From: Helcobacillus massiliensis
Lineage (GTDB): Bacteria; Actinomycetota; Actinomycetes; Actinomycetales; Dermabacteraceae
Reading direction: 5' to 3'
Assembly: GCF_014191425.1 (NCBI RefSeq)
Contig: NZ_JACHWP010000001.1
Coordinates: 930,001-994,000, forward strand
Length of the DNA stretch: 64,000 bases
The translations under genes and the position numbers were made by a program. Below, one piece after another: positions 38,857-45,562 of this stretch; the first letter of the stretch is position 1; the number at the start of each line of letters is the position of its first letter. The notes beneath the pieces are model-generated. The model saw nothing but the letters and a program-made list of their open reading frames with translations, was not told where the DNA came from and searched no databases.

Positions 38857-39001
38857 AGCCTCGGCCTGTCCATTCGCTTAATCTGCCGAGCCGGGATGTG
38901 TGAGACTTGGGGTCGCCTCCGACACCGACGGCGGACCCCGCGCGGGCCGCCTGGACCGGCAGCCGTCGGAAGAGACCCGACGAGACGAGGAGACGCAGAC
39001 G

Positions 39002-39535
39002 ATGACAGCTGAGCGCCCCGCGATGGACGAGGTGGACCGCATCGTCCGGGCCTGGCAGCAGCTGCAGCCCGATCTCAACTCCACTCCCCTGCACGTGTTC
39101 TCCCGCATCTCCCGCATCGCGTGGATCCAGGAGAACCTGCGGCGCGATGTCTTCGCGAAGGTCGGCCTGGACGGCTGGGAGTTCGACGTCCTCTCCGCAC
39201 TGCGCCGCGCCGGCGACCCGTTCCAGCTCACTCCCCGACTGCTGATCCAGGAGACCCTGGTGACCTCCGGGACCATGACCACCCGGCTCGACAAGCTGCA
39301 GGCGCGGGGCCTGGTGACGCGGGCCCGCGCCCCCGAGGACGGCCGCAGCGTGGTGGTGCAGCTGTCGGCGGAGGGCATCCGCCTGGCCGATGAGGCGATC
39401 AGTGCGCTGATGGACGCCGAACAGGAGTTCCTCGACGCCCTGCCCGCGGGCGCGCAGGAGCAGATGGGCGATGCTCTGCGCAGTCTTCTGCTCGCGCTGG
39501 AGGCGCCGGCGGACGCCGAGGACCCGTCGGCCTGA
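39002..39535 (+). CDS. MarR-family transcriptional regulator
   Basis: A 177-residue protein with a MarR winged helix: helices around GWEFDVLSALRRAGDPFQL, recognition helix region TLVTSGTMTTRLDKLQARG and the wing TRARAPEDGRSVVVQLSAEG (about residues 95-125). Helical N- and C-termini form the dimer. ATG 39002 has a GAGGAGA ribosome site; the longer frame to 38900 was rejected. Its ligand is unknown. It lies 139 nt upstream of the SPFH cassette on the same strand, so it could regulate or be unrelated to it. Confidence 0.88.
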   Translation: MTAERPAMDEVDRIVRAWQQLQPDLNSTPLHVFSRISRIAWIQENLRRDVFAKVGLDGWEFDVLSALRRAGDPFQLTPRLLIQETLVTSGTMTTRLDKLQARGLVTRARAPEDGRSVVVQLSAEGIRLADEAISALMDAEQEFLDALPAGAQEQMGDALRSLLLALEAPADAEDPSA

Positions 39536-39594: not shown

Positions 39595-39635
39595 GGGCGC
39601 CGTCGGCTGTGCTTGGATTGTCTGCAGCGGCGCCC
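39595..39635 (+). promoter_or_regulatory. Inverted repeat before the SPFH gene
   Basis: GGGCGCCG and CGGCGCCC are separated by 25 nt, 60 nt past the marR stop and 40 nt before the SPFH gene. It could be a weak terminator of marR or an operator. There is no U-tract after it. Confidence 0.3.
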
Positions 39636-39674
39636 GTCACATCGGCGCTGAACCATCCACTTCAGGAGGACCTC

Positions 39675-40925
39675 ATGGGCTTCATCCAGGCATTCACCGG
39701 CGCACTCGGCGGCACCTTCGCCGACCAGTGGCTGGACTTCCTCACCGTTCCGTCCGGCATTGCGCCGACGGCCGCTCTGTTCCCCGCCGTCTCGAAGGGC
39801 ACCAACGCCGGTCGCGGCCAGAACACCAAGGGCAGCGAGTCGATCATCTCCAACGGGTCGAAGATCGTGGTGCCGCCGGGCTACGGCCTCATCACGATGG
39901 AGGACGGCCGCACCACGGGCCTGATCACCGAGCCGGGCGGGTACATCTGGGCCTCCGGCGATCCGAACTCCCGCTCCGTGTTCGCCGGCAACGGCATCAT
40001 CGCCTCCACCGTGTCCACCACCTGGGAGCGCTTCAAGTTCGGCGGGCAGCCCGGCAGCCAGCAGCTGGCGATGTTCGTGTCGCTGAAGGAGCTGCCGAAC
40101 AACCGCTTCGGCACCCAGTCGGAGATCTACTGGGACGACCGCTACATGAACGCGCAGGTGGGCGCCGTGGCGCGCGGGTCGTACACGATGAAAATCGTGG
40201 ATCCGCTGCTGTTCGTGCACAACTGGGTCCCCGCGAGGCACCTCCAGCCGAACGCTCAGCCGTTCGACTTCACGGACATGAGCAATGACGCCGCGGACCA
40301 GCTGTTCCGCGAGGTCGTCGCCTCCCTCGCCGCAGCGTTCTCGAAGTACACCAACGACGAGGACAAGGACCACCGCATCACCCGCATCCAGCAGGATTCG
40401 ATGGGCCTCGCCCAGGCGCTCGGCGCCGCGGTGGAGGAGAACTACCGCTGGGCGGCGGACCGCGGTCTGGTGATCGTCAAGGTCGCGATGGAGTCCATCG
40501 AGTACGACGAGGACACTCGCCGCCTGCTGTCCGATGTCAAGAAGGCCGACGCCCTCTCCGGCGACCGCTCCCGCTCCTTCGCCAGCCAGGCGTTCGCGCG
40601 CGGCGTGGAGTCCGCTGGCCAGAACGGCGGCGGTGCGGGCCTGGCGATGATGGGCATGGGCGCCGGTGCGCTCGGCGGCATGGCCGCGCCAACGAACCAG
40701 ACGCCGTTCGCCGGCGCGCAGCAGGGTCAGCAGCAGGCAGCGCCCCAGCAGGACGGCGGGGCCGGTCAGGCGCAGGGCGGCCAGACTCAGGGCGGGCAGG
40801 CCGACGGGTCCCAGAGCGGCGAGGATCCCGTGGCGAAGCTCGCGCAGTTCAAGCAGATGCTCGACCAGGGCCTCATCTCCCAAGAGGACTACGACGCTGC
40901 GAAGAACCGCGCGCTCGGCCTGTGA
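39675..40925 (+). CDS. SPFH-domain protein with C-terminal SHOCT domain (YdjI-like)
   Basis: A 416-residue protein. Residues about 50-300 form an SPFH/virion-core-like domain (IVVPPGYGLITMEDGRTTG, STTWERFKFGGQPGSQQLAM, FREVVASLAAAFSKYT). Residues about 310-380 are Gly/Ala/Gln-rich, and the last 30 form a SHOCT motif (KLAQFKQMLDQGLISQEDYD). No N-terminal membrane hairpin is obvious, so it probably associates peripherally with membrane. ATG 39675 has a GGAGG site at 7 nt. The zinc-ribbon gene follows with a TGATG overlap. The layout recalls Bacillus YdjG-YdjI, linked to PspA-type membrane stress in that species. No protease motif is present. Confidence 0.8.
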   Translation: MGFIQAFTGALGGTFADQWLDFLTVPSGIAPTAALFPAVSKGTNAGRGQNTKGSESIISNGSKIVVPPGYGLITMEDGRTTGLITEPGGYIWASGDPNSRSVFAGNGIIASTVSTTWERFKFGGQPGSQQLAMFVSLKELPNNRFGTQSEIYWDDRYMNAQVGAVARGSYTMKIVDPLLFVHNWVPARHLQPNAQPFDFTDMSNDAADQLFREVVASLAAAFSKYTNDEDKDHRITRIQQDSMGLAQALGAAVEENYRWAADRGLVIVKVAMESIEYDEDTRRLLSDVKKADALSGDRSRSFASQAFARGVESAGQNGGGAGLAMMGMGAGALGGMAAPTNQTPFAGAQQGQQQAAPQQDGGAGQAQGGQTQGGQADGSQSGEDPVAKLAQFKQMLDQGLISQEDYDAAKNRALGL

Positions 40926-42241
40926 TGTCCGCCCCGTTCGATCCCAACGCCCCGCGTCCCATCCCCCAGGGAGCACACGACGCCCACCGGGTCGCCGCCG
41001 ATCCGCAGGGCGCGCCGCTGAACGGGACCGAAGCCAGTGACGAAGCGATGACGGATGTCCGCCCCGTCGGCGAGCAGGTCATCGACACCTCGCGCGGCCA
41101 GCAGAGCGGCTTCCAGAAGTGCCCCCGCTGCGGCTCCACGGAGATCGGGTACTCCCCCGTAGCGGCCGCTCTGGTGTGCACCTACTGCCGCTTCCAGTGG
41201 AACGAGGCGAACGCGGACCAGCAGTTCGGGTTCGACTCCTCCATCGGCTCCCTGCGAGGAACGGTGCACGGCTCCGGTGCTGCGAACCTGGTCGAGGACG
41301 ACTCAGTGGTGACGATCCGCTGCGCCGGCTGCGGCGCCGACGTCGTCATCGATCCGCAGCAGGCGGCTCAGGCGCGCTGCCACTGGTGCCGACAGGTGCT
41401 GAGCCTCGGCCAGCGCATCGGCAACGGCCGCATCCCGGACGCGATCCTGCCGTTCACGGTGCCGCATGAGGCGGCCGTCAAGAACATCCGCGAATTCGCC
41501 GGATCCCGGCGCGCGTTCGCCACCGCCGCCTTCAAGGAAGGGTTCCAGCCGCAGAACATCCTCGGGGTGTACATGCCGTACATGCTGGTGGATGCGACCA
41601 TGGACGTCGAGCTGCAGGGACGGGGCCAGGAGCACCTCGGCACCCGCACAGTCGGCTCCGACGACAAACGACGCACCTACTACATCGCGCAGGAGTACGA
41701 GTTCGGTCGCCGCTTCACCCTGCGCGTGGACGACCTGCCGCTCGAGTCGAACGCGGACCGCGCCCACATGAACACCGCCGTGAACACGAACAACGTGATC
41801 AATGCGGTGCAGCCGTTCGATACGAAGAACGCCGTCGCCTACAACCCGAACTACCTCAGCGGATTCACCTCGGAGCGGCGCGACACGAACATCGCCGACC
41901 TCGGCGGAGAAGCGGCCGACGGCTTCCTGTCCATCGCCCGCGCCCGCGCCTCCGGCATGCTGCCGCTGTACGACCGCGGTGTGGTCTGGGAGCGGGAGGG
42001 ACTGGACGTGCACGGCAGCCGTTGGGTGTCGATCTATCTGCCGGTGTGGCTGTACAGCCACATGGAGCAGCGGTCCGACGGCAGCCAGTTCGTTCACTAC
42101 ATCGCCGTGAACGGCCGCACGGGGCGCACCATGGGCTCCGTCCCCGTGTCGCAGGGCAAGCTGATCGCCGTGTCCGCGCTCGCCTCCCTCGGCGGGCTGG
42201 TGCTGGGCTTCCTTGCGCCGCTTGTCGCCAATGTCTTCTGA
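40925..42241 (+). CDS. Zinc-ribbon membrane-anchored protein (TFIIB-type)
   Basis: A 438-residue protein. It carries two four-Cys zinc ribbons: C66-x2-C69 ... C85-x2-C88, and C133-x2-C136 ... C152-x2-C155. A long mixed alpha/beta region (about 165-400) follows, with YMPYMLVDATMDVELQGRGQ and WVSIYLPVWLYSHMEQ, then a single C-terminal membrane segment (about 415-436). It resembles the family annotated as TFIIB-type zinc-ribbon proteins next to SPFH genes; the cytoplasmic ribbons and tail anchor suggest a membrane adaptor. ATG 40925 overlaps the SPFH stop; GTG 40922 is an alternative. Confidence 0.8.
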   Translation: MSAPFDPNAPRPIPQGAHDAHRVAADPQGAPLNGTEASDEAMTDVRPVGEQVIDTSRGQQSGFQKCPRCGSTEIGYSPVAAALVCTYCRFQWNEANADQQFGFDSSIGSLRGTVHGSGAANLVEDDSVVTIRCAGCGADVVIDPQQAAQARCHWCRQVLSLGQRIGNGRIPDAILPFTVPHEAAVKNIREFAGSRRAFATAAFKEGFQPQNILGVYMPYMLVDATMDVELQGRGQEHLGTRTVGSDDKRRTYYIAQEYEFGRRFTLRVDDLPLESNADRAHMNTAVNTNNVINAVQPFDTKNAVAYNPNYLSGFTSERRDTNIADLGGEAADGFLSIARARASGMLPLYDRGVVWEREGLDVHGSRWVSIYLPVWLYSHMEQRSDGSQFVHYIAVNGRTGRTMGSVPVSQGKLIAVSALASLGGLVLGFLAPLVANVF

Positions 42242-42255
42242 GAAGGACACCGACG

Positions 42256-42516
42256 ATGAACGAAGCGATCAGCTACATCCTGTTCCCGCTCGGCGGCATG
42301 CTGCTGGTGGGGCTCACGGTGTACTTCGCGATCTACCAGTACTACCGCAACACCGATAAGTCCTACGAGTTCGAAACTCAGACCAGTGTCGAAGTGGTCG
42401 ATGTGCAGATGTACGATCGGCCCACTCGCCGCTACGACAGTCTGCGTTCACGCATGATGAACGGGCACAACACGCTGGATCATCGGCAGCGGGTGCGGCG
42501 CGTTCCCCTGAAGTGA
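42256..42516 (+). CDS. Small single-pass membrane protein
   Basis: An 86-residue protein with one membrane segment near the N-terminus (residues about 8-26, ILFPLGGMLLVGLTVYFAI) and a basic, Tyr/Arg-rich cytoplasmic tail (YDRPTRRYDSLRSRMMNG). An AGAAGGA ribosome site precedes the ATG, 14 nt after the zinc-ribbon gene, so it is probably the third gene of the cassette. I do not recognise the family. It ends 21 nt before the convergent alkB gene with no hairpin between. Confidence 0.75.
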   Translation: MNEAISYILFPLGGMLLVGLTVYFAIYQYYRNTDKSYEFETQTSVEVVDVQMYDRPTRRYDSLRSRMMNGHNTLDHRQRVRRVPLK

Positions 42517-42537: not shown

Positions 42538-43209
42538 TCAGCCGCTGAGGCCGGTGACCCGCATCGTGATGTTGATGCGGCCGCTGGTGAGGCCGCATCC
42601 GTCGGGCGCGGTGCCCGCCCGGGTGCCGAGCACACCGTGGAATGCGAGCCTGGACGGCCCTCCGAACACGAACAGGTCGCCCGAACGCAGCTCAAGGTCC
42701 TGATAGGGCCGGTTTCGGGTCTCGGTGTTCCCGAAGCGGAAGCGGCAGGAATCACCGATGGACAGGGACACCACCGGGTCGTCGGCCTTTTCGTCCTTGT
42801 CCTGGTGCATGCCCATCCGGGCGGTGGAGTCGTAGAAGTTCACCAGGGCGGTGTCGGGGCGGTAGCGGACCGCGGCGCTCTCGTCCCCGGTGGCGGTGGT
42901 GAGGGCGCGCCGACCCAGCCGCCCCATCCAGTCGGGGAAGTCGAGCACGCGGCGCCCGTTGACGTCCACGGCCTCCCGCGTGTAGCCAGTGGGGCGCCAA
43001 TGCCACCCGAGGCAGACGGTGCGCACGCTCATCGGGTTTCCGCGGATCGTGGTGGAGTGCAGGGGCACCGGTCCCTCGACCCACCGATGGAACTGGCCGA
43101 CGATCCAGCGCTGCTGCTCCAGGGTGAGGAACCCGGGCACGAAGTGGGCACCCGGCGGCAGCTCCGGAATCGGGCGCTGCACGAGCTCGTCCCCGAACAG
43201 GGGGTCCAT
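42538..43209 (-). CDS. alkB: AlkB-type 2OG-Fe(II) DNA dealkylase
   Basis: A 223-residue protein with the AlkB dioxygenase core: iron ligands in MGMHQDKDE (H-x-D), the distal His in SRLAFHGVLG and the 2-oxoglutarate Arg motif RINITMR near the C-terminus. PVPLHSTTIRGNPMSVRTVC is the nucleotide-recognition region. It oxidatively removes methyl groups such as 1-meA and 3-meC. ATG 43209 overlaps the ogt stop (TGATG), giving a two-gene direct-reversal repair unit with ogt. The longer frame to 43305 was rejected. Confidence 0.92.
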   Translation of the reverse strand: MDPLFGDELVQRPIPELPPGAHFVPGFLTLEQQRWIVGQFHRWVEGPVPLHSTTIRGNPMSVRTVCLGWHWRPTGYTREAVDVNGRRVLDFPDWMGRLGRRALTTATGDESAAVRYRPDTALVNFYDSTARMGMHQDKDEKADDPVVSLSIGDSCRFRFGNTETRNRPYQDLELRSGDLFVFGGPSRLAFHGVLGTRAGTAPDGCGLTSGRINITMRVTGLSG

Positions 43210-43724
43210 CAGCGGCCCGATTCGAGGTCCAGCAGCATCCGCTTCGCTTCGAGCCCGCCGCGGTAGCCGCCGAGCGACCCGTCGGCGCGCAGCACGCGGT
43301 GGCATGGCACCAGAATGGGGAGAGGGTTGGAGCCGCAGGCGGAGCCGATTGCGCGGGTCGCCCTCGGGCGGCCGACGGAATCGGCGACCTGCGTGTAGGT
43401 GCGGGTGGTGCCGTAGGGGATCTGCGCGAGGTGGTTATGAACGGCGCGGCGCAGCTCCGTGGTGGCCGGTGGTGCCAGCGGCACGGTGAATCCTCTGCGC
43501 TCACCCGCGAAGAACTCGGCGAGCTCCGCTTCGGCGCGCTCGAGGTGGTGAGCGGCCGACGGGTGCTGCCCGCTGCTGGGTGCGCAGTCCCGCTGGGGCG
43601 ATGAACGGTCGGCGTCGCGGGGGACGTCGAGGTCCGCCTCGAAGCTGACGGCGCTGACGCCGCGGTCAGTAGCGGTCAGCAGCAGGCGCCCCAGGGGCGA
43701 ATCGATTACGCGCTCAGCAGTCAT
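43209..43724 (-). CDS. ogt: Methylated-DNA-[protein]-cysteine S-methyltransferase
   Basis: A 171-residue protein starting IDSPLGRLLLTAT and containing the PCHRV active site (VPCHRVLRADGSLGGYRGG), with the winged-helix segment IPYGTTRTYTQVADSVGRP. It transfers O6-methyl groups from guanine to its own Cys. I choose ATG 43724 because a -10 (CACAAT) sits exactly 6 nt before it; ATG 43766, overlapping the ABC-F stop, is the alternative and would add 14 residues. It lies directly downstream of the ABC-F gene. Confidence 0.9.
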   Translation of the reverse strand: MTAERVIDSPLGRLLLTATDRGVSAVSFEADLDVPRDADRSSPQRDCAPSSGQHPSAAHHLERAEAELAEFFAGERRGFTVPLAPPATTELRRAVHNHLAQIPYGTTRTYTQVADSVGRPRATRAIGSACGSNPLPILVPCHRVLRADGSLGGYRGGLEAKRMLLDLESGR

Positions 43725-43730
43725 GCGCCC

Positions 43731-43736
43731 ATTGTG
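43731..43736 (-). promoter_or_regulatory. -10 of a leaderless ogt promoter
   Basis: CACAAT on the minus strand, then GGGCGC, then ATG 43724. It matches base for base the serC -10 (CACAAT) and nearly its 6-nt spacer (GGGTGC). Confidence 0.5.
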
Positions 43737-43765
43737 CCAGCCGGCCTCGCCCGTGGCCGCGTCCA

Positions 43766-45562
43766 TCAACCGGTGAGCTCTGTGAGCTCGAGCCAGCGCT
43801 CCTCCAACTGCTCGATCTCCTCCTCGCGTTCGCGCACCTGCGCGTGCAGGGCGCTGAGCCCCTCGAAGTCGGTGGGGTCGTGGGCGGCGAGCTGATCGTG
43901 CAGGCGAGCGATCTCGGCGGTGAGGCGGTCGATGCGTCGTTCGATGGAGGAGACCTCCTTCTTCACGGCATGCAGCTCGGCTCCGCTGAGCGCCTGTCCC
44001 TCTGGTGCGGCGGACCCGTCGGAGCCGCGTGCCGTGGCCGCTGCATCAGGGCGGGAGTCCTGGGCGGCCCGCAGCTGCAGGTACTCCTCCACCCCGCCGG
44101 GCAGGTGCCGCAGCCCCTGGTCGATCACCGCGTACTGCTGATCGGTGACGCGCTCCATCAGGTAGCGGTCGTGACTGACCACGATCAGGGTACCGGGCCA
44201 GGAGTCCAGCAGGTCCTCCAGCGCGGTCAGCATGTCGGTGTCCACATCGTTCGTGGGCTCATCGAGGATCAGCACGTTCGGTTCGCTCATCAGCACCAGC
44301 AGCAGCTGCAGGCGGCGGCGCTGGCCACCGGAGAGGTCCATCACCGGGGTCGACAGGTGGTCCTTCGTGAAGCCGAGGCGCTCCAGCAGCTGGGCGGGGC
44401 TGAGCTCCTTGCCGTCCACTGTGAACGACGTCCGGTACTCGGCGAGCACCTCGCGGACCCGCTTGTCGCCGATCTCCGCGAGCTCGCGGAACTGCTGGTC
44501 GAGGATCGCCACCTGCACGGTCTTGCCGCGGGTGATGCGACCGCTGGTCGGCTCGATCGCTCCGGCGATGAGGTTCAGCAGGGTCGATTTGCCTGCGCCG
44601 TTCTGGCCGAGGATGCCGGTGCGCTCACCGGGGGCGATGAGCCAGGTGACATCCGCGAGCACCTGCTTGTCGCCGTAGGCCACGCCCACGTCCTCCAGGT
44701 CCACGACCTTCTTGCCGAGGCGCGCCGTGGCCATGCGCTTGAGTTCGAGGGAGTTGCGGACATCGGGCACATCGGCGATGAGCTGATTGGCGGCGTCGAT
44801 CCGGAACTTCGGCTTCGAGGTGCGCGCGGGGGCGCCGCGGCGCAGCCACGCCAGTTCCTTGCGCATCAGGTTCTGCCGCTTCTGCTCCGCCTGGGCCGCG
44901 ATCCGGTCGCGCTCCACGCGCTGCAGGACGTACGCCGCGTAGCCGCCTTCGAACGGCTCCACGATGCCGTCGTGCACCTCCCAGGTGGCAGTGCAGACTT
45001 CGTCGAGGAACCAGCGGTCGTGGGTGATGACCACGAGCGCCCCCTGGTTCTTCGGCCACCGGTTCTTCAGATGCCGGGCGAGCCAGGCGATGCCCTCCAC
45101 ATCCAGGTGGTTGGTGGGCTCATCCAGACCGATCAGGTCCCACTCCCCCACCAGCAGCTGCGCGAGCGCGACGCGGCGGCGCTGCCCACCGGAGAGGGCG
45201 CCGATCAGGCGGTCGAAGGGGATGTCGGAGACGAGGCCGGAGACGACGTCGCGGATGCGGGGGTCGCCCGCCCACTCGTACTCCTGGAGATGGCCGACGA
45301 TCTCGTGGCCGACGGTGGCCTCGTCATCGAGGCTGTCCGACTGCGCCAGCAGCCCGATGCGGACACCGCCGCGTGGAGTGACCCGCCCGCCCATCGGCTC
45401 GAGACGGCCGAACAGCATGGACAGCAGAGTGGATTTGCCGTCACCGTTGCGGCCGACCATCCCGATGCGGTCGCCGTCGAAGATGCCGCAGGTGACCGAG
45501 TCGATGACGACGCGGTTCGGATATGCCAGGTGCAGGGACTCAGCCCCGAGGAGAAGTGCCAC
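43766..45562 (-). CDS. ABC-F family ATPase (Uup-like)
   Basis: A 598-residue protein with two ABC cassettes and no membrane domain: Walker A GRNGDGKST and GQNGAGKST, signatures LSGGQRRRVALAQLL and LSGGQRRRLQLLL, Walker B with GLDEPTNHLD and ILDEPTNDVD. A linker (about 245-280) and a C-terminal coiled coil (about 510-590, SSIERRIDRLTAEIARLHDQ) match the Uup subgroup. ABC-F proteins act on the ribosome in translation quality control or antibiotic protection, and Uup-like ones also affect transposition and 50S assembly. The start is GTG 45562 with a -10 (TAGGGT) 6 nt before it. Confidence 0.9.
   Translation of the reverse strand: MALLLGAESLHLAYPNRVVIDSVTCGIFDGDRIGMVGRNGDGKSTLLSMLFGRLEPMGGRVTPRGGVRIGLLAQSDSLDDEATVGHEIVGHLQEYEWAGDPRIRDVVSGLVSDIPFDRLIGALSGGQRRRVALAQLLVGEWDLIGLDEPTNHLDVEGIAWLARHLKNRWPKNQGALVVITHDRWFLDEVCTATWEVHDGIVEPFEGGYAAYVLQRVERDRIAAQAEQKRQNLMRKELAWLRRGAPARTSKPKFRIDAANQLIADVPDVRNSLELKRMATARLGKKVVDLEDVGVAYGDKQVLADVTWLIAPGERTGILGQNGAGKSTLLNLIAGAIEPTSGRITRGKTVQVAILDQQFRELAEIGDKRVREVLAEYRTSFTVDGKELSPAQLLERLGFTKDHLSTPVMDLSGGQRRRLQLLLVLMSEPNVLILDEPTNDVDTDMLTALEDLLDSWPGTLIVVSHDRYLMERVTDQQYAVIDQGLRHLPGGVEEYLQLRAAQDSRPDAAATARGSDGSAAPEGQALSGAELHAVKKEVSSIERRIDRLTAEIARLHDQLAAHDPTDFEGLSALHAQVREREEEIEQLEERWLELTELTG

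Follow-up and report, generated by a model that had tools for sequence, protein, structure and literature searches.

The locus analysed here raises the question of whether three adjacent genes of Helcobacillus massiliensis, encoding an SPFH-type protein, a double zinc-ribbon protein and a small membrane protein, form a genuine unit, and whether that unit is a relative of the pspA-ydjGHI operon of Bacillus subtilis in a genome that has no PspA. The window is the whole 64,000-nt stretch of DNA that was analysed (contig NZ_JACHWP010000001.1, positions 930,001 to 994,000, assembly GCF_014191425.1), and the three genes are hereafter called A, B and C.

Conservation of the three genes as a cassette

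A first-pass annotation of the window described three plus-strand genes joined by a TGATG overlap and a 14-nt gap, with a SHOCT motif in the first product, two C4 ribbons and a C-terminal anchor in the second and 86 residues in the third, and each of these features was confirmed (Table 1). Gene A was correctly recognized, but its start had been set about 80 nt too early, at 39595; the open frame extends 5' to 39471 and the best start is at 39675.

Table 1. Positions of genes A, B and C and of their predicted domains, numbered from the first letter of the window
Feature	Position	Strand	Remark
Gene A, SPFH (YdjI-type) protein, 416 aa	39675..40925	+	AGGAGG Shine-Dalgarno directly 5'
Gene A SPFH/Band 7 domain, residues 65-293	39867..40553	+	Weak Pfam Band_7 match; alignment with relatives
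Gene A SHOCT motif, residues 388-414	40836..40916	+	Pfam SHOCT E 6.6e-6
Gene B, YdjG-like double zinc-ribbon membrane protein, 438 aa	40925..42241	+	ATG overlaps gene A stop (TGATG)
Gene B zinc ribbon 1, C66-x2-C69 ... C85-x2-C88	41120..41188	+	Pfam Zn_Ribbon_TF E 1.9e-4; Cys invariant
Gene B zinc ribbon 2, C133-x2-C136 ... C152-x2-C155	41321..41389	+	Cys invariant
Gene B C-terminal hydrophobic helix, residues ~413-431	42161..42217	+	Hydropathy 2.26
Gene C, 86-aa single-pass membrane protein	42256..42516	+	Starts 14 nt past gene B
Gene C transmembrane helix, residues ~8-26	42277..42333	+	Hydropathy 2.15

Close homologs of gene B, defined by E < 1e-60, were found in 25 of 198 genomes of the order, and 25 close loci from five families (L032 to L056, L032 being a Dermabacter MAG) were read besides the window. 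The order and strand of A, B and C were identical in all 25. A profile built for gene C and searched across the 198 genomes matched every one of the 25 that carry a close gene B, always directly 3' of B; the only further match was a marginal one of 35 residues. The genes flanking the cassette varied between families and, within the window's own family, the Dermabacteraceae, also between the clade of Dermabacter and the window and the main genus, which we take to be Brachybacterium. The adjacency of A, B and C is therefore not inherited scenery. Rare adjacency in a genomic survey had been named in the first-pass annotation as the outcome that would speak against its cassette; the survey instead found the adjacency constant. 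Hence, A-B-C is a real, tightly conserved three-gene cassette. That an unrelated SPFH gene, a ribbon gene and a small ORF merely became neighbours by chance is suggested by the weak Pfam scores of the window's own proteins and by nothing further, and is contradicted by the constant order, the complete co-occurrence and the differing flanks; given the order survey and the gene C profile, this explanation was rejected as having negligible probability.

More distant relatives (f20; L057, L059 and L060) kept the A-B pair, with a version of A that ends in a zinc ribbon, and gene C was not detected at these three loci. Duplication of gene B was also observed. One locus in the window's family (L143, G210:C33) carries it in two tandem copies, 49 and 50% identical to that of the window, while several paralogues, some of them distant, are encoded in G302 (L141, L142) and G112 (L057, L058), possibly as parts of further SPFH/ribbon pairs.

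The surroundings of the cassette were scrutinized as well. A motif for ECF-type promoters, of the kind used in extracytoplasmic stress, was not enriched 5' of gene A (1 of 26 regions, with 0.96 expected), and a scan for sigma-70 promoters and terminators found none. By eye, a TAnnnT element stands approximately 30 to 45 nt 5' of gene A in many of the loci L034 to L054 (GATAGCNTG, GCTANGNTGG), where it resembles the -10 box of a housekeeping promoter followed by a short leader. Just 5' of gene A lies a gene for a MarR-family regulator (38900-39535, plus strand), which is also present in the Dermabacter MAG; at L033 a TetR-family gene holds this position, and the MarR-family regulator was not seen there in other families. 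On the 3' side, positions 42538-43769 of the minus strand encode an AlkB-like 2OG-Fe(II) oxygenase (Pfam 6.4e-46) and, upstream of it, what appears by eye to be a methylated-DNA-cysteine methyltransferase, together a putative DNA-alkylation repair pair.

Domains of the three proteins

The Band_7/Band_7_1 match of gene A fell below the Pfam cut-off, at E ~1e-3. Its relatives match Band_7_1 strongly, including an Enterococcus homologue with 32% identity over 317 aa (E 3.9e-13) and the f20 relative at L060 (E 2.7e-14), and because of these matches we regard membership of the SPFH/Band 7 superfamily, judged by homology, as firm. The protein has no transmembrane helix (hydropathy maximum 1.3) and opens on a conserved stretch, MGFIxAFxGAIGGTLADQWxDF. 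It contains no Cys, hence no C-terminal zinc ribbon, and ends in a SHOCT motif instead, so that the proposed replacement of the SPFH protein's ribbon by SHOCT stands. The SHOCT match scored 26.1 bits, 0.9 bit below the curated 27-bit cut-off of PF09851; the motif is kept in alignments of close relatives, and a C-terminal helical hairpin of about 28 residues fits that family. Structure prediction from a two-row alignment gave a mean pLDDT of 33, with the SHOCT hairpin alone confident (pLDDT 60-84), and a profile search of the PDB with gene A returned no match.

Gene B carries four CxxC knuckles, at residues 66, 85, 133 and 152, and none of the eight Cys varies in an alignment of 22 sequences that spans Actinomycetota, Bacillota and Pseudomonadota, with Enterococcus, Comamonas and Vibrio among them. 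Its structure prediction, likewise from a two-row alignment, had a mean pLDDT of 36, and a PDB profile search with gene B recovered zinc ribbons only. The tail of gene C is basic, with 12 K/R, and contains the conserved pattern YRNxDKRxxxExxT ... MxGxN; no Pfam or NCBIfam family matched gene C above cut-off.

PspA distribution and candidate roles

We favour, with a probability of roughly 0.55, the reading that the cassette is a lineage-specific form of the YdjI/YdjG membrane module that serves as a membrane scaffold and does not depend on PspA. The soluble YdjI of B. subtilis depends on the membrane proteins YdjG and YdjH for its localisation, and deletion of ydjI lowers membrane fluidity (PMC8581546). 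The way YdjI is brought to the membrane leads us to infer that an SPFH assembly forms on the inner face and that B and C tether it. Gene A, which has no membrane helix of its own, would build SPFH rings or caps there. The C-terminal helix of gene B would anchor it so that both ribbons lie in the cytosol, and gene C would be a small N-out/C-in anchor with a cytosolic basic tail, the two tethering the gene A assembly much as YdjG and YdjH tether YdjI. The SHOCT tail of gene A may serve for docking in place of the C-terminal ribbon that its relatives have, and the assembly as a whole would preserve the fluidity or integrity of the membrane with no PspA involved. By homology, a part in membrane surveillance may be supposed. 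The ribbon-bearing version of A found in the same pair at the f20 loci was counted in favour of this module reading. The best-defined job of YdjGHI in B. subtilis is bringing PspA to the membrane; PspA is absent here, which weighs against a YdjI/YdjG-type module.

The first-pass annotation had reported that PspA is missing beside the three genes. This was borne out and extends to the genome as a whole (99.9% complete), which gave no match to PspA (PF04012), with controls matched, and none to TPM (PF04536). We also considered, and rejected, a typical ydjGHI operon whose pspA lies at another locus.

Across 47 genomes of the window's family, 39 had the cassette and no PspA, five had PspA and no cassette, three had neither and none had both. 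In the five PspA-positive genomes, pspA is flanked by cydA and rne. Wherever this site is assembled in a cassette genome, cydA adjoins rne and there is no pspA; the corresponding gap in the window's genome was read too. In two PspA-positive species of the main genus, the ABC-exporter and rhodanese genes, which flank the cassette in their congeners, lie close together with no cassette. Within the family the cassette itself sits at two distinct places in the chromosome, one in Dermabacter and the window and one in the main genus, and loss of pspA accompanies both. The cydA-rne and ABC-exporter/rhodanese sites together look like an exchange.

This pattern invites the alternative that the cassette protects the membrane in the place of PspA, each lineage retaining just one of the two; in the Dermabacteraceae, it might have taken over from PspA, the losses and gains at the two syntenic sites recording the exchange. 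The family counts, the reciprocal swap between the cydA-rne and cassette sites, and the two cassette sites each with pspA loss all favour such a replacement, as does the order sample, where PspA was present in three of 25 cassette genomes and 111 of 173 others (raw p 1e-6, shared ancestry ignored). The family tree, however, holds only about three independent contrasts, for which a sign test is not significant, and raw p values ignore ancestry. Three family genomes have neither component, two of them being 96-98% complete. Moreover, PspA coexists with the cassette in both sampled cassette genomes of f13 and in 20 of 36 in family f9, as compared with its presence in 135 of 186 f9 genomes without the cassette (p ~0.05, kinship ignored). 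With 20 of 36 f9 genomes carrying both, exclusion of PspA is therefore no general rule and independence from PspA is not universal. On balance, replacement is a tentative and rather doubtful reading, both in general and for the Dermabacteraceae. The PspA pattern in the window's family is nevertheless the cassette's best claim to interest, being suggestive and not proven. Two related proposals were rejected: mutual exclusion of cassette and PspA everywhere, by the f9 genomes with both, and a loss of TPM tied to that of PspA, since TPM has a scattered distribution in the family (11 of 47 genomes).

A scaffold on which membrane proteins are assembled or quality-controlled, comparable to HflK/C for FtsH and not specific to envelope stress, would also suit an SPFH protein. 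SPFH proteins elsewhere form cages around proteases (PMC12048511), and a chaperone-like part in assembly has been suggested for the band-7/TPM proteins that partner PspA (PMC11237479). Against this, no protease or other fixed partner adjoins the cassette across families, and we consider such a role unlikely. A search for anti-phage defence with PADLOC gave a best E of 0.008, to a ribbon only, and PADLOC and PHROGs returned nothing meaningful beyond SHOCT-like tails.

The variant YdjI/YdjG module remains our preferred reading. It matters that an SPFH/ribbon pair, accompanied by a third protein dedicated to it, is retained in genomes that lost PspA: the cassette makes it testable whether an SPFH module acts at the membrane in its own right and whether it can substitute for PspA. 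Gene C, which matches no Pfam or NCBIfam family above cut-off, is now tied to a defined system.

Comparison with pspA-ydjGHI and other relatives

The kinship with the B. subtilis pspA-ydjGHI group that the first-pass annotation had proposed was upheld, at the level of homology, by the SPFH plus YdjG-like pair. The link to YdjG and YdjI was drawn from published domain architecture and an Enterococcus operon. Both systems (PMC8581546, PMC11237479, PMC9239133) pair a soluble SPFH protein with a two-ribbon protein that has a C-terminal membrane segment, and both encode one more membrane protein, here gene C. The cassette differs in having no PspA, in operon or genome, and no TPM protein (YdjH), an 86-aa single-pass protein standing in its place. 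Its SPFH protein ends in SHOCT, whereas that of the ydjGHI group bears a C-terminal ribbon (Ravi et al., PMC11237479), and the SPFH gene comes first in the cassette and last in B. subtilis.

The bridge between the two is an Enterococcus gallinarum operon (NZ_CP116511, L083), which encodes an SPFH protein with a double zinc ribbon, a double-ribbon protein and a 268-aa TPM protein, with no PspA adjoining it. Its SPFH and ribbon proteins are homologous to A (32%) and B (26%) and the order, A - B - third membrane gene, is the same; the operon differs from the cassette in the double ribbon of its SPFH protein and in its TPM gene. As the third gene there is TPM in the same order, gene C thus occupies the TPM slot. 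In Comamonas and Vibrio, too, the SPFH gene adjoins the ribbon-protein gene with no PspA beside them, and SPFH/ribbon pairs without adjacent PspA hence occur in several phyla.

These comparisons overturn one earlier proposal, namely a transfer of the ribbons to an adaptor of their own. In B. subtilis a membrane protein distinct from the SPFH protein, YdjG, already combines two ribbons with a YpeB-related NTF2-like domain and a membrane segment (Ravi et al., PMC11237479), and Enterococcus has ribbons in both proteins; the proposal is wrong because a ribbon-bearing adaptor is common to all versions.

Two further systems share parts with the cassette. SPFH-SHOCT proteins (Band_7_1 plus SHOCT), the most frequent SHOCT architecture, match gene A in domain architecture, but PMC3581485 gives that architecture alone, without partners B and C. 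In relatives from f9 and f13 (L076 to L082), pspA adjoins the gene of a large TPM protein; this PspA-TPM dyad of actinobacteria comprises the two parts of pspA-ydjGHI that the cassette lacks, at a separate locus with no SPFH or ribbon protein. The claim of an undescribed version accordingly holds in part: the adaptor and the SPFH-SHOCT architecture are not new and pairs without adjacent PspA occur elsewhere, but what is special to the cassette is SHOCT in place of the SPFH ribbon, a small protein in the slot of TPM (YdjH), and a genome from which PspA is missing altogether.
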